A DNA stretch of 64,000 bases from an uncultured Bryobacteraceae bacterium (GTDB taxonomy: Bacteria; Acidobacteriota; Terriglobia; Bryobacterales; Bryobacteraceae): the NCBI GenBank assembly GCA_938003835.1, contig CALKXJ010000004.1, forward strand, positions 1 through 64,000, written 5' to 3'. A model generated the notes under the pieces. It had not been told where the DNA came from, made no database searches, and saw nothing but the letters and a program-made list of their open reading frames with translations. Positions 5,243 through 13,126 of the stretch are shown piece by piece (within the stretch, counting starts at the first letter, position 1; each line of letters starts with the position of its first letter). The position numbers were made by a program, and so were the translations under genes.

Positions 5243-6844
5243 GTGTCAGCGTCGAATATGCCCGGCCACAGCAAATCAGGTGGGAACGGACGGCCGCTGG
5301 CCGCGACGCCGGCGGCACGCGCGGAGTCGCCGCGGGTCGCGTTCTACACGCGCATCTCAACCGACGAGGACCACCAGAAGTATTCCCTCGGCGCACAGAA
5401 GGAGCGCCTGGAGGCCTTCTCGAAAGCCCAGTGGGGCGATGCCTGGCAACTCCACAAGGTCTACCGCGACACCGAGAGCGGCACTCACATGAACCGCCCC
5501 GGTCTCGAGGAGATGCTCTACGACGCAGGGAACCAGGCCTTCAACACCCTGTTGGTCTTCCGCGTTGACCGGCTCTCGCGCAAGGTTCGCGAGCTCGCCC
5601 AAATGGTGGATGAGCTCACCAAAAACGGCGTCGCGCTCAAGAGCATCACCGAGCCCTTTGACACCTCGAACGCCGCCGGCAAGATGATGCTCCAGATGCT
5701 GGGCGTCTTCGCCGAGTTTGAGCACGCGACCATCGTCGAGCGCACCAAGGTCGGCATGGAGAAGAAGGCCAAGGGCGGAAACTTCGTGGGCGGCCACGTG
5801 CCTTACGGCTACCGGCTCGACCCGGGGAAGGGCCTTGTGGTCCACGAGGAGGAGGCGCTCATCGTCCGCAAGATGTTCACGATGTACGCCCTCGGCAGGG
5901 AAGGCGCCTCGGCGATCTCGAAGCAGCTCAACGAGGCCGGCTACCGCAACCGCAACGGCCGGAAATGGGGCCGCCGCGTTGTGCTCTACATGCTCAAGAA
6001 TCCGGTCTACGTGGGCAAGATCCGCTGGCGCGAAGTGCTCTACGAAGGGCACCACGATCCGCTCGTCTCAGACGTGCTCTTCGAGAAGGCGAACGAGGTC
6101 CTCCAGGAGCGCCACGAGGATCTGAAAGGCCGCCAGTGGCACAACGGCGATGAGCGGCTCCTCACGGGCATCATCAAGTGCAGCCGCTGTGAAAGCCACA
6201 TGTTCGGCGGCGGCGGTTACAAGAAAGGCGTTCATGTTCCGTACTACGTCTGCTCGAAGCGGTACAACGACCACGATTGCGAGCAAGACTACGTGCGGGC
6301 CGACCTTTTGGAGTCGGCGATCATCGAAGACATCAAGGCGATGTTCCGGGACGAGCAGTTCATGGCCCGCGTTTGGACGGAGGCCAACAAACGGCTGTGC
6401 GCGGAGAAGCCGAACCTGGAAAAGGAGATCGCGAAGGTCGCGGCGGAGGCCGCAAAGGCTCAGACGGCCCTGGACCGCTACTTCGAGGCGTTCGAGGCGG
6501 GGACGCTCAATGCGGAACTCTGCAACGAGAAGGTGCGAGACCTGCGGGCCCGGCTCGAAGAACTGGAGGCTGAAAAACGGGATCTAGAGACCCGGCGAGA
6601 AAGGCTGGAGCTGCCGGCCATCGACCGCGACATGCTGGCGTCCCTCGTGGACAACTTCGAGCGGATCATGGCCGATGCCCCGAACCCGCAAAAGAAGGAT
6701 CTGCTACGCCGGCTGGTGAAAAGGGTGCTGGTTCATGACCGCCGCACCATCGAGGTCTGGTACGGGTTAACGAACTGCCGGAAGGTCGAAGACTGGAACA
6801 ATTGGCTCCTCAGGCAGGACTCGAACCTGCAACCCTCCGGTTAA
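5243..6844 (+). CDS. large serine recombinase (integrase)
   Basis: A 533-aa large serine recombinase. The resolvase domain has the nucleophile Ser39 in YTRIST and the conserved FRVDRLSR (~105-112). The recombinase domain (~175-290) includes YGYRLDPGKGL. A zinc ribbon with CSRC and a later CSKRYNDHDC pair spans ~312-347, followed by a long coiled coil (~385-455). It likely integrated this element. The start is GTG at 5243 after AGAGGTAAGG; an ATG at 5258 is an alternative. The last 13 codons read antisense through the tRNA-Asn gene, so the present C-terminus depends on the integration site. Confidence 0.9.
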   Translation: MSASNMPGHSKSGGNGRPLAATPAARAESPRVAFYTRISTDEDHQKYSLGAQKERLEAFSKAQWGDAWQLHKVYRDTESGTHMNRPGLEEMLYDAGNQAFNTLLVFRVDRLSRKVRELAQMVDELTKNGVALKSITEPFDTSNAAGKMMLQMLGVFAEFEHATIVERTKVGMEKKAKGGNFVGGHVPYGYRLDPGKGLVVHEEEALIVRKMFTMYALGREGASAISKQLNEAGYRNRNGRKWGRRVVLYMLKNPVYVGKIRWREVLYEGHHDPLVSDVLFEKANEVLQERHEDLKGRQWHNGDERLLTGIIKCSRCESHMFGGGGYKKGVHVPYYVCSKRYNDHDCEQDYVRADLLESAIIEDIKAMFRDEQFMARVWTEANKRLCAEKPNLEKEIAKVAAEAAKAQTALDRYFEAFEAGTLNAELCNEKVRDLRARLEELEAEKRDLETRRERLELPAIDRDMLASLVDNFERIMADAPNPQKKDLLRRLVKRVLVHDRRTIEVWYGLTNCRKVEDWNNWLLRQDSNLQPSG

Positions 6845-9914: not shown

Positions 9915-9974
9915 AATTCGCCTCCTTTGTGCGGTCCTTGTTCCGAAATCAGAACAACTCAAGCCCCCGGGTAG

Positions 9975-10023: not shown

Positions 10024-10857
10024 ATGTTCCCTCGCCGTAACGAGCCGGCGCTTACCGGAGAACGTCATCTTAGCATGGAGGATGCTGGCCGCAAGCTCAA
10101 GCAGGCCCGCGAGCGGCTGAACCTCCGCTACCGGGACGTCGAGCAGGCCAGCCTTCGCATCGCCGAGCGTCATAACAACGACGAATTTGCCATCGCACTC
10201 AGCCGCCTGGCCGACATCGAGAACAAAGGGACGGTGCCGAGCATCTACCGGCTGTACACCCTCTGCGCCATCTACCGGCTCGACATCCTCGAGGTGATGC
10301 AGTGGTACGGCGTGGACGTTTCGCAGCTTCCGGCCGACGCCGCAGGGATCGAACTGGAGACGACCCACCTGATCGGCTACTCGCCGAACGAGCATGGCGT
10401 AGTGCAGGTGCCGTTGTCGCTCGATCCGGGCCTGGATCCCACCAAAACCACCTATCTCAGCCGGATGATTCAGCGCTGGGGCACCTTGCCATTGATGTTG
10501 CTCAACGGGCTGGACCTGCGCAACCACCGATATGGCTTCATCGGCACGGAAGACTGGTGGATGTACCCGCTGCTTCAGCCGGGCTCGCTGGTGATGCTCG
10601 ATGAGACCCGGCGCCGCATCGCTGCCTCCGGCTGGTCCAACGAGTTCGAGCGGCCGATCTATTTCCTGGAGCACCGGCAAGGCTACGCCTGTAGCTGGTG
10701 CAGCCTCCGCGACTCGCAGCTGATCCTGGTGCCACACCCCGCCTCGAGTTTCGAGCCGAAGGTATACGCGTATCCGGAGGAGATCGAGGTGATAGGGCAG
10801 GTGGTCGGGGTGGCTATGCGTCTGGATCCGGCCCAGCGGCGCCGCACTCGTTCTTGA
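10024..10857 (+). CDS. XRE regulator with degenerate S24/LexA-like domain
   Basis: A 277-aa regulator. The N-terminal helix-turn-helix covers about residues 19-98 (AGRKLKQARERLNLRYRDVE). The C-terminal part resembles a LexA/CI S24 fold: EDWWMYPLLQPGSLVMLDE (~176-194) lines up with the family's Ser-Met-x-Pro...Gly-Asp motif, but the Ser position appears to be Trp and the expected catalytic Lys is not evident. I infer a sensing or dimerisation domain without self-cleavage. The start at 10024 has AAGGG 8 bp upstream; ATG at 10075 is possible. It overlaps the convergent next gene by 44 bp. Confidence 0.7.
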   Translation: MFPRRNEPALTGERHLSMEDAGRKLKQARERLNLRYRDVEQASLRIAERHNNDEFAIALSRLADIENKGTVPSIYRLYTLCAIYRLDILEVMQWYGVDVSQLPADAAGIELETTHLIGYSPNEHGVVQVPLSLDPGLDPTKTTYLSRMIQRWGTLPLMLLNGLDLRNHRYGFIGTEDWWMYPLLQPGSLVMLDETRRRIAASGWSNEFERPIYFLEHRQGYACSWCSLRDSQLILVPHPASSFEPKVYAYPEEIEVIGQVVGVAMRLDPAQRRRTRS

Positions 10858-11272
10858 GCAGCTCGAGCAACACTTCCAGGTCGTGCAGATAAAGTTCCCG
10901 CTCGGCCCGGCGCGCGCTGCCGGGAATCAGGTTCCGGTACGGGGTCAGGCGGAGCCAGGCGTCGAGCACGGCGCGCTTGTTGTTGCCGAGCGCCGACAGA
11001 TAGAGCTCCAGATCGGCCTTCTGCTGCTCGAGCGTATAGCACAGCCACTCGGCGAACGTCTGCGCGTGGCTCCGCCGCAAGGTCCGATCAGCCTCTTCCT
11101 GCCCGAACATCAGCGCGAAACCGTGATGCTCGTACGTGTCGGTGTTGGGGTTGCGCAACGAGGAAAGATAGACCAGCCGACCGAAGACCGAGGGAATCTG
11201 CGACAGGGTATGACGCCAGAGGTCAGCCGCTGCCCCGCGCTCCAACGTCGCTTTGGCCACCGTCCGTCTCAT
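10814..11272 (-). CDS. conserved protein of unknown function
   Basis: A 152-aa protein, probably cytoplasmic and mostly helical, with no signal peptide or membrane segment. The middle has FGRLVYLSSLRNPNTDTYEH and the FGQEEADRTLRRSHAQTF region; the end is Leu/Glu-rich (YLHDLEVLLELLKNE). I do not recognise a family with a known role. It is convergent with the XRE regulator and overlaps it by 44 bp, and its upstream region is shared with the secreted peptide gene. A TATAAT at 11323-11318 may be its -10 box. Confidence 0.6.
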   Translation of the reverse strand: MRRTVAKATLERGAAADLWRHTLSQIPSVFGRLVYLSSLRNPNTDTYEHHGFALMFGQEEADRTLRRSHAQTFAEWLCYTLEQQKADLELYLSALGNNKRAVLDAWLRLTPYRNLIPGSARRAERELYLHDLEVLLELLKNECGAAGPDPDA

Positions 11273-11421
11273 CGCTGGATCCGTCGCGGCGCCGACCGAT
11301 ACACTGCTGCCTCGCCCATTATATTACACCACCGGCGGCAGCCGGCGGCATTGTTCTGAAATTCGAAAATCTTTCGGCGTTTCCACCGCCGGCCGGCCGA
11401 CCCCCGTTAGGCTGATATCGA

Positions 11422-11443
11422 CGTTCCGGCAGACGCCGGAACG
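11422..11443 (+). promoter_or_regulatory. perfect 9-bp hairpin in peptide leader
   Basis: CGTTCCGGC and GCCGGAACG pair perfectly around the loop AGAC, ending 25 bp before the ATG of the small peptide gene. There is no T tract, so it is not a typical terminator. It could be an RNA control element or a protein-binding palindrome. Confidence 0.5.
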
Positions 11444-11468
11444 AAGCTCGTCCGAGGAGAACAGCGCG

Positions 11469-11594
11469 ATGAAGAAGATTCTGTGGGTTCTGATCCTGGC
11501 ACTCCAGTTCGCAGGGGCCGTGAGCGTGGTGACCGCTGAGTCGCCGTTTCCTGAGTGTCTGCCTTGCCCCACCGATCGGGGACCGGCTCGTTAA
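11469..11594 (+). CDS. 41-residue secreted peptide
   Basis: A small gene with a clear ribosome site (GAGGAGA, 9 bp before ATG). The product opens with MKK, then a hydrophobic stretch (ILWVLILALQFAGAVSVV) and an Ala-x-Ala-like cut site near residues 21-23 (VTA). The predicted mature part is about 18 residues, ESPFPECLPCPTDRGPAR, with a CLPC pair that could form a disulfide. Function is unknown; an exported signal or a small periplasmic peptide are both possible. It sits between a LexA-like regulator region and a membrane protein gene, with a hairpin in its leader. Confidence 0.55.
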   Translation: MKKILWVLILALQFAGAVSVVTAESPFPECLPCPTDRGPAR

Positions 11595-11672: not shown

Positions 11673-12464
11673 GTGTACCTCACGCTGATCCTGGGAGATG
11701 CGGAGCGGGTGCTGTGGCTGGTTGTTTATACCGCCCAGCTTCTCCTGCTGGCCCGCCTGGTCCAGCAGCGGCTCGTCCGCCGCTATCGGTTCTTTGCCCT
11801 CTATCTTGGCGTCCAGGTGCTCGAAGCCAGCCTGCTGCTGGCGCTCAAGACGGGGACGAACGCTTACGGCTGGACCTACGCGGCGTTCGTGCCCATCCTT
11901 GGACTGTGTGCCACGCTGGCGGTGCTCGAACTCCATGACTTGGTATTGCGCGACTACGCGGGTATCCGGAGCCTGGCGCGCTGGATGATTTCCGGGAGCC
12001 TGGCGGTCGCTCTGGTGGTGGCCGGCTTGACGCTGTCGCCCGATCTGAGCAATCCCGGGGAGGCGTATCCGCTGGTTCGGGCTTTCCATGTCTTTCAGAG
12101 GGTTCTCTACTCGGCGTTGTTCCTTTTCATGCTCTTTGTGACTGCGTTCCTGCTCTGGTTTCCCCTGCCATTGAACCGCAACATCGTTCTGCACACGGTC
12201 GTTTTCCTGGTCAGTTTCGCCGGCCGATCCGGCGCCCTGTTGCTCCGCAATGTCGGGGGTGCGGAAGTGCGCCTGCTGGCCAGCACCCTCAACCTAGGGA
12301 TCGCCGCAACTTGTTTGCTGGCCTGGATTTTGTTTCTGACGCGGGCCGGCGAACAGAAGTTGGTTGTCTCCGGCCACCGGTGGCGGCCTTCCGAAGCGGA
12401 TCGCCTGGCCGAGCAACTGGACTCGATTAACGCCACGCTGCTTCGCACTGCCCAGAAGCGCTAG
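11673..12464 (+). CDS. multi-pass membrane protein of unknown function
   Basis: A 263-aa inner-membrane protein with about seven hydrophobic segments (roughly 10-28, 40-58, 68-90, 107-125, 146-168, 175-190, 213-235) and a short charged C-terminal tail. No transporter or enzyme motif was seen. The start is GTG at 11673. It is 78 bp downstream of the peptide gene on the same strand and could be co-transcribed. A small GGGA/TCCC hairpin with five T's follows it, before the promoter of the next gene. I cannot assign a role. Confidence 0.65.
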   Translation: MYLTLILGDAERVLWLVVYTAQLLLLARLVQQRLVRRYRFFALYLGVQVLEASLLLALKTGTNAYGWTYAAFVPILGLCATLAVLELHDLVLRDYAGIRSLARWMISGSLAVALVVAGLTLSPDLSNPGEAYPLVRAFHVFQRVLYSALFLFMLFVTAFLLWFPLPLNRNIVLHTVVFLVSFAGRSGALLLRNVGGAEVRLLASTLNLGIAATCLLAWILFLTRAGEQKLVVSGHRWRPSEADRLAEQLDSINATLLRTAQKR

Positions 12465-12586: not shown

Positions 12587-13126
12587 ATGGACGCTTTTGA
12601 AGCGGTTGTGATCTTGGCAGCGACTGTGGGCGCTGCGTTCGTGTGGTTGTTTTGGAGGTTGATCTCCTCCACAAGGGTTCGGGGCGTCGACCCCGAGTGG
12701 CTGAAGAACTTCTCTGTTGCAACGTACCGACCGATGGAGCGGTTACTCTCCGAAGAGGACGTCGAGTTTCTCAGGTCCCAGCCCGGCTACCTGCCGGCAA
12801 TGGAGAAGACCCTGCGTTCCGGCCGGCGCCGTATCTTTCGCGCTTACCTGAGGAGCTTAGCGACCGATTTCAACCGGCTGCATCTGGCGCTGCGCCTCGC
12901 CCTGCTGGAGTCGGCGACGGACCGCCCGGATCTGGCGACCGTCCTGGTCAAGCAAAAGGTGACGTTTTTCCTGGCGCTGGCGGCGGTCCACCTGCGTCTT
13001 ACCATGCACGCTTTGGGCTTGGGGACCGTGGACGTCCGCGGGCTGGTCTCCACCGTGGATCGCATGCGGACGGAGCTGAGGAGCCTGAGCCTAGCCCGTG
13101 TCGGTGTGGAGCGGGTGTCGGCGTAG
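12587..13126 (+). CDS. membrane-anchored protein of unknown function
   Basis: A 179-aa protein with one N-terminal membrane segment (~5-26, VVILAATVGAAFVWLFWRLI) and a helical cytoplasmic part rich in Arg and Leu. A second hydrophobic stretch at ~123-143 (VTFFLALAAVHLRLTMHALG) may be buried or membrane associated. GGAGGTAGG lies about 8 bp upstream of the ATG. It has its own promoter at 12520-12548. No known domain was recognised; the Arg-rich middle could bind nucleic acid or lipid headgroups, but that is speculation. Confidence 0.6.
   Translation: MDAFEAVVILAATVGAAFVWLFWRLISSTRVRGVDPEWLKNFSVATYRPMERLLSEEDVEFLRSQPGYLPAMEKTLRSGRRRIFRAYLRSLATDFNRLHLALRLALLESATDRPDLATVLVKQKVTFFLALAAVHLRLTMHALGLGTVDVRGLVSTVDRMRTELRSLSLARVGVERVSA

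Follow-up and report, generated by a model that had tools for sequence, protein, structure and literature searches.

A gene for a secreted 41-aa peptide, at 11469–11594 (+) of the window (the whole 64,000-nucleotide stretch of DNA analysed, from a soil acidobacterium), was found to be real and conserved, and is, as judged from profile matches, a member of a widespread, previously unnamed gene set. The mature parts encoded by its relatives are, by their codon differences, under strict purifying selection. The gene stands between a regulator of the XRE/S24-like type and a seven-helix membrane protein (TM), and the locus may be a peptide-signalling module with the peptide as secreted signal and TM as its probable receptor, a reading to which we give an even chance. 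Peptide sensing had been suggested in the preliminary description, and would fit the locus because of the 7TM partner, the operator upstream of the peptide gene and the evolution of peptide arrays. The features of the locus are given below; "full" loci are those with at least 2.5 kb of downstream sequence (n = 55).

9938–9957 (no strand): palindromic operator TTGTTCCGAAATCAGAACAA, lying between the ubiX and regulator genes; no other perfect match in the 5.0 Mb of the genome, and 0 for the reversed control
10075–10857 (+): XRE-type regulator with an S24/LexA-like C-terminal region; alignment A3, mean column identity 73%
10814–11272 (−): D gene, 152 aa, of no known family; found at every full locus (55 of 55), with its frame overlapping the regulator's 3' end
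11351–11370 (+): second, asymmetric and weaker operator TTGTTCTGAAATTCGAAAAT, upstream of the peptide gene
11408–11413 (+): probable −10 element TAGGCT, at a fixed distance from the operator
11422–11443 (+): 9-bp hairpin with a perfect stem, near the predicted mRNA 5' end; not a conserved part
11469–11594 (+): secreted peptide precursor, 41 aa, with a PxPxCxPC core; based on homology searches and on selection in the relatives' paralogous copies
11673–12464 (+): TM, 263 aa, seven-helix membrane protein directly following the peptide gene; probable receptor or partner of the peptide
12587–13126 (+): S, 179 aa, one N-terminal membrane helix and an all-helical domain; in 45 of 55 full loci; AF2 pLDDT 92.3

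The peptide gene, its relatives and selection on the mature part

The open reading frame (ORF) at 11469–11594 (+) translates as MKKILWVLILALQFAGAVSVVTAESPFPECLPCPTDRGPAR and is preceded by a plausible ribosome site, GAGGAG, at 11454–11459. Its product runs from a lysine start through a hydrophobic stretch and a VTA-type end to the short tail ESPFPECLPCPTDRGPAR. Signal sequences were assigned by rule from the sequence, and the precursor probably carries one of the Sec type that would lead to secretion; with the cleavage site read by eye, the mature part would be the tail, with the PxPxCxPC core. A search of 61 genomes with the peptide returned clear relatives (best match outside the window, E = 1.1e-8), several of them tandem copies 136–160 nt apart. 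An alignment of 15 sequences including the window's (A1) showed invariant P, P, C, P and C in the order P-x-P-x-C-x-P-C. The profile built from it matched 152 of 200 family genomes at E ≤ 0.1, far beyond chance even though matches near this threshold will include chance ones, and 100 of 200 at E ≤ 1e-4 (hand count, among the matches listed). The secreted mini gene proposed in the preliminary description is thereby borne out. Most named relatives were from Bryobacteraceae/Bryobacterales or simply Acidobacteria, and no Pfam or NCBIfam family was found for the members tested.

The neighbourhood of similar regulators in other acidobacteria, where a search for the peptide had been recommended, gave a positive result. 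A regulator profile yielded 80 named loci (the best 80 of 175 confirmed), and signal-bearing ORFs with the PxPxCxPC pattern were found downstream of the regulator in 51 of them (73 copies, 0.5–1.4 kb away), with none elsewhere in the loci's 820,247 bases. A recognisable secreted peptide or precursor was present at 72 of the 80 loci; no peptide was found at the other eight, three of which have less than 660 nt of downstream sequence. The 80 loci comprised 36 with single short genes, 12 with arrays, 13 with multicore precursors, 8 with variants that mostly differ in Cys spacing, 3 with longer Cys-rich proteins and 8 with none. In the 48 short-peptide loci the start codon of the peptide followed the regulator by a median of 641 nt. 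The tandem forms have 2–5 genes per locus, and the multicore precursors have one signal sequence followed by 2 to 8 or more tandem cores, 4 of the 13 running off their contig. The precursor at L146 contains eight full pattern copies of ILPIPKCYPCEEPPFAGAE and one truncated core.

The core is not constant. Cys spacing was altered at L103, L114, L123, L142 and L151, and Cys was absent from the cores at L203, L204 and L206 (poly-Pro) and at L175; because of these Cys-less cores, no single core chemistry can be assigned to the family. A metal- or redox-active peptide, with the CxPC pair as copper ligand or as periplasmic thiol couple, would agree with the invariance of CxPC in alignment A1, and is weakened by the Cys-less variants and by the changes in spacing, across which the linkage persists; it is considered very improbable. 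At L171 and L175 the same locus encodes multicore precursors whose cores are unrelated to each other (QTPTCWPGDKRCWPRK... and the Cys-less AEIPMPDPNSPKRPTLT, respectively), which shows how fast a core can be replaced.

Pairwise codon differences were counted within the arrays and precursors, and counts within one array are not independent of one another. Over 915 pairwise codons of the mature part, 16 arrays differed silently at 179 and by replacement at 38, and 13 of the 16 had many silent differences without a single amino-acid change; L211 and L216 account for 37 of the 38 replacements and L142 for the remaining one. For the signal part of the arrays, 265 silent and 182 replacement differences were counted in 1174 pairwise codons. 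The cores of the 13 multicore precursors gave 625 silent and 55 replacement differences in 2269, and those of L146 alone 161 and 0, respectively. We conclude from this pattern that the ORF is translated, with the tail as its functional part. A secreted short peptide gene that is selected as a peptide, as expected of quorum-sensing systems, therefore appears to be at hand, with secretion read from the rule-assigned signal sequences.

Gene order, regulator and operators

The preliminary description had placed the peptide in a cluster of a LexA-like regulator and membrane proteins, and this arrangement was found to be conserved in relatives. The common order in 18 stretches is, with gaps, pheA(−), ubiX(−), regulator(+), D(−), peptide(s)(+), TM(+), S(+), SprT-like(−) and fabH(+). 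The open frame of the regulator begins at 10024 and its conserved start lies at 10075. HTH_19 was matched by 12 of 12 regulator members tested against Pfam and Peptidase_S24 weakly by 2 of 12 (best E = 0.097), and no TPR family was reported among the 12. At the position that we take, from the S24 motif, to be that of the active Ser, the window regulator has W, and its relatives in A3 have W, S, T or F; the catalytic Ser of the auto-cleaving LexA/S24 regulators is accordingly missing from the window regulator. The D gene matched no Pfam family above cut-off, the fold of S, a possible downstream partner, had no PDB match of note, and no consistent match to peptide, D, TM or S came from Pfam, NCBIfam or PADLOC. 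Three negative results count against the signalling reading: a kinase or other known output domain was looked for and not found, the nearby genes include none for a processing protease, and the precursors show no cleavage motif common to all. A defence system was also considered and was dropped, as PADLOC gave no match.

The strongest rivals to signalling are those in which TM is an immunity protein or the peptide is a subunit of TM. In the former, the peptide would be a Sec-dependent bacteriocin under the LexA-like regulator. Such a system would agree with a short secreted Cys peptide that adjoins a membrane protein, with peptides that differ between genera and a TM that varies along with them, and with an S24-like regulator reminiscent of colicin control. 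Against this stand the regulator's constant chromosomal position next to ubiX and pheA throughout the family, neither patchy nor mobile, a conserved set without exporter, lysis or modification gene, the Pro-rich and not evidently membrane-active peptides, and the negative PADLOC result, so that a bacteriocin is regarded as improbable.

The locus has two operators. A palindrome of the TTGTTCYGAAWTCAGAACAA type was found upstream of the regulator, with arms matching at 10 or more of 12 positions, in 72 of the 80 loci, compared with 9 of 1600 shuffled regions. The asymmetric operator scored at least 9 of 10 in 39 of the 48 short-peptide loci and in 0 of 960 shuffles, at 74–146 nt before the start codon of the first peptide. 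When 40 promoters were aligned, a TA step was enriched at 56–57 nt from the operator start and no conserved −35 element was found; the TA step is probably the −10 box. The linked regulator would be the protein that binds the operator and, because the operator distance is fixed and the promoter has no −35 box, it is more likely to set peptide output as an activator.

The leader between this promoter and the peptide gene had drawn attention for its hairpin, CGTTCCGGC-AGAC-GCCGGAACG, and the perfect 9-bp stem with its 4-nt loop is indeed present at 11422–11443. Such a stem is nevertheless at chance level, as the window holds three perfect stems of at least 9 bp (loops of 3–8 nt) compared with a mean of 3.45 in 20 dinucleotide shuffles, and it is not conserved: 38 peptide leaders of relatives were not generally structured (mean z = −0.28), with z below −1.5 in six, the window's leader included. 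The hairpin was therefore rejected as a conserved regulatory element. Should the promoter be correctly assigned, the stem falls only a few bases from the mRNA 5' end and might do no more than stabilise the transcript.

With a relaxed operator pattern, the whole genome of the window gave only the sites at 9938 and 11351 and a site pair before a small basic protein (reversed control, 0), which looks like a second regulon target. This protein (MDVxKILxELRQEREQIEEAI..LERLARGRGKRRGRPPAWM) is encoded at L161:4792–4992 (genome G000, contig C13). The operator was also observed upstream of the same kind of small basic protein in six further genomes (L235, L237, L240, L241, L243 and L245), seven in all, and from these occurrences the operator is taken to mark a small conserved regulon.

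Some minor observations were made in the same searches. In another genome (G014), a perfect operator at L234:2349 precedes by about 200 nt an apparent gene for a LuxR-type response regulator, which may be an additional member of the regulon. The idea that the ubiX neighbour is a cysteine decarboxylase of the LanD type with the peptide as substrate was rejected: PF02441 was its sole match, and by its motif the sequence reads as ordinary UbiX. The gene is taken as context. To the left of the lysS-like, pheA and ubiX genes, a large ORF at 5243–6844 reads as a serine recombinase.

The seven-helix protein and its link to the peptide

TM presented seven hydropathy peaks, with K/R-rich inner loops and tail that point to an N-out, C-in orientation. 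An AF2 model from 66 sequences is a 7TM bundle (pLDDT 93.6, pTM 0.88) that ends in one cytoplasmic helix, and no consistent Pfam family was found among the 66 members. When the model was searched with Foldseek, GPCRs and rhodopsins came first, though weakly (best E = 0.054, none below 0.001). With VIA-align, all 50 rows listed were GPCR or GPCR-like, at Z values of 10.7–12.7, which fall within the helical-bundle range, where arrangement alone can reach about Z 13. No sequence match for TM was found in the PDB. Seven helices, the N-out/C-in orientation and GPCR-like packing would thus place TM with GPCR-type proteins in topology and fold resemblance only. The outer half-helices vary more than the inner ones (entropy 2.74 vs. 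2.33, p = 2e-5), and N170, the sole residue listed as invariant, lies on the inner side by the predicted topology.

Among the 55 full loci, peptide and TM were found together in 42, the peptide only in 8, neither in 5 and TM only in 0 (Fisher p = 3.7e-4, ignoring phylogeny); TM is thus linked in 42 of the 50 full loci with a peptide. The five loci without a findable peptide and the eight with a peptide and no linked TM count against the signalling reading. In one genome with an unlinked peptide (G002), TM was found on another contig. The association also holds outside the main loci. Six regulator loci (L197–L202) from another family of the same class (f8) carry D, TM and a different two-Cys peptide, with TM and peptide lying upstream of the regulator in L201, and in f23 two loci have a poly-Pro peptide without Cys. 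Of the TM loci away from the regulator in the window's own family, L177, L178 and L182 have secreted Pro/Cys peptides; no peptide was found within 900 nt at L166, L169, L170, L173 and L180, which also speaks against the signalling reading, and the sequences of L168 and L179 begin where their contigs do.

TM was also used alone as a query and matched 30 of 297 genomes of the phylum. A signal-bearing small ORF was found by filter upstream of TM in 15 of 20 regulator-independent loci, several of which share one genus (g91), and 14 of these ORFs were judged credible; random anchors gave 11% filter matches, with true peptides among them. Many of these upstream peptides are tandem (three copies in L251, four in L260). 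With looser criteria three more were seen: L250, whose filter match had been dropped as not credible, has a family peptide, L262 a different secreted peptide and L269 an ORF with repeated cores. None was in the right place upstream of TM in L263 and L268, and L258 has only 215 nt of upstream sequence. The ORF in L269, upstream of a TM homologue from a distant family of the phylum (f45), carries NDGMTGIPP threefold, one copy slightly changed, without a clear signal sequence.

Peptide distances were found to track TM distances when regulator distance was removed (r = 0.38, p = 0.0005, n = 22) and more weakly when S distance was removed (r = 0.18, p = 0.036, n = 22), in Mantel tests that ignore phylogeny; S tracks peptide distance almost as well (peptide–S given regulator, r = 0.34). 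The same correlation, together with the tight peptide–TM linkage even where the regulator is absent, would be expected if the peptide were a small periplasmic subunit or regulator of TM, stabilising or auto-inhibiting it in the same cell without any intercellular signal. Three to five tandem genes or eight-core precursors at one locus would be superfluous for a subunit, and the eight full loci without a linked TM, as well as the TM of G002 on its separate contig, also speak against this reading, which is held to be unlikely. Nor does the small ORF seem to be a secreted, Pro-rich, SecM-like stalling leader that tunes TM translation by secretion or EF-P status, even though the signal sequence, the Pro-rich C-end, the place upstream of TM and the poly-Pro versions in L203, L204 and L206 would suit one. 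A stall at a single point would not explain multicore precursors, or several genes that encode the same mature part and each have a ribosome site, and in the same eight full loci no TM lies downstream; a single stalling peptide controlling the next gene, as in SecM, is therefore not what these loci contain, and such a leader has little probability.

Proposed mechanism and comparison with known systems

For maturation, disulfide, binding, direction of regulation and output of the signalling module, we infer the following course. The core would be released into the periplasm or the medium, probably with a C-x-P-C disulfide, and would bind the variable outer face of TM, the putative receiver. The signal might then leave via the conserved inner face and the C-terminal helix, perhaps through S, to the cell. 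The XRE/S24-like regulator would set peptide output through an operator common to its own promoter and that of the peptide, and more peptide copies would give a higher dose.

In yeast, alpha-factor is made from a multicore precursor and has a 7TM receptor, Ste2. That system resembles the present one in its signal sequence, in cores repeated within one precursor or over several genes and in a partner of 7TM topology, and the Ste2 entry 7ad3 is among the 50 VIA rows listed for TM (Z 10.7, 209 residues, 4.2 Å). The present system differs in being bacterial, without a G protein, in having no sequence relation that was found and in lacking dibasic Kex2-type sites as a rule, and the receptor role of TM is putative. 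A broader reading, that Acidobacteriota run a bacterial analogue of hormone–GPCR signalling with prohormone-like precursors or arrays, species-specific Pro/Cys peptides, a kinase-less seven-helix receptor and a cytoplasmic route of a new kind, formed by S and a dedicated operator regulon, is put forward tentatively and is rather doubtful.

Among bacterial systems, ComC/ComD and Agr also have a secreted short peptide gene that adjoins a polytopic membrane protein. ComD is described as having six membrane segments, with extracellular loops that recognise the pheromone (PMC4873836), and is the nearest bacterial parallel in the literature consulted. Compared with ComC/ComD and Agr, the present conserved set has no histidine kinase, response regulator or ABC exporter, has multicore precursors and occurs in Acidobacteriota; the C-terminal histidine kinase domain of the HPK10 type (Agr/ComD) is absent from the 263-aa TM. 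In Rgg/SHP, ComRS and other RRNPP systems a small secreted peptide likewise lies beside an XRE-type regulator, with an operator upstream of both. RRNPP regulators bind the re-imported peptide via TPR domains, whereas the regulator described here has an S24-like C-terminal region and a dedicated 7TM protein accompanies it, and peptide and TM remain together at loci to which the regulator is not linked. LexA, phage CI and DdrO share the HTH and the S24-like segment (the HTH matches that of DdrO weakly, E = 0.39) and differ from the present regulator in the Ser position, which is W here (W, S, T or F in relatives), and in the operator, here GTTC-N8-GAAC. Several cores per precursor are also known from cyanobactin-type RiPPs; unlike those, the precursors described here have a Sec signal instead of a RiPP leader and a conserved set without modification enzymes.

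Searches of the open-access literature, PMC4873836 and PMC3174227 included, gave no description of the peptide, the locus or the pairing, and they returned no peptide-signalling system for Acidobacteriota, which are among the most abundant soil phyla. If the signalling reading is true, this phylum has a class of secreted peptide signal with an unusual receptor type, to our knowledge unlike the known bacterial peptide receptors, and with precursors of the same build as the prohormones of fungi and animals. Even without reception, a strongly selected secreted mini-peptide family would remain, present in dozens of genera and with no Pfam or NCBIfam match among the members tested. Each genome states its own ligand, candidate receptor and operator, and the proposal is thus directly testable.
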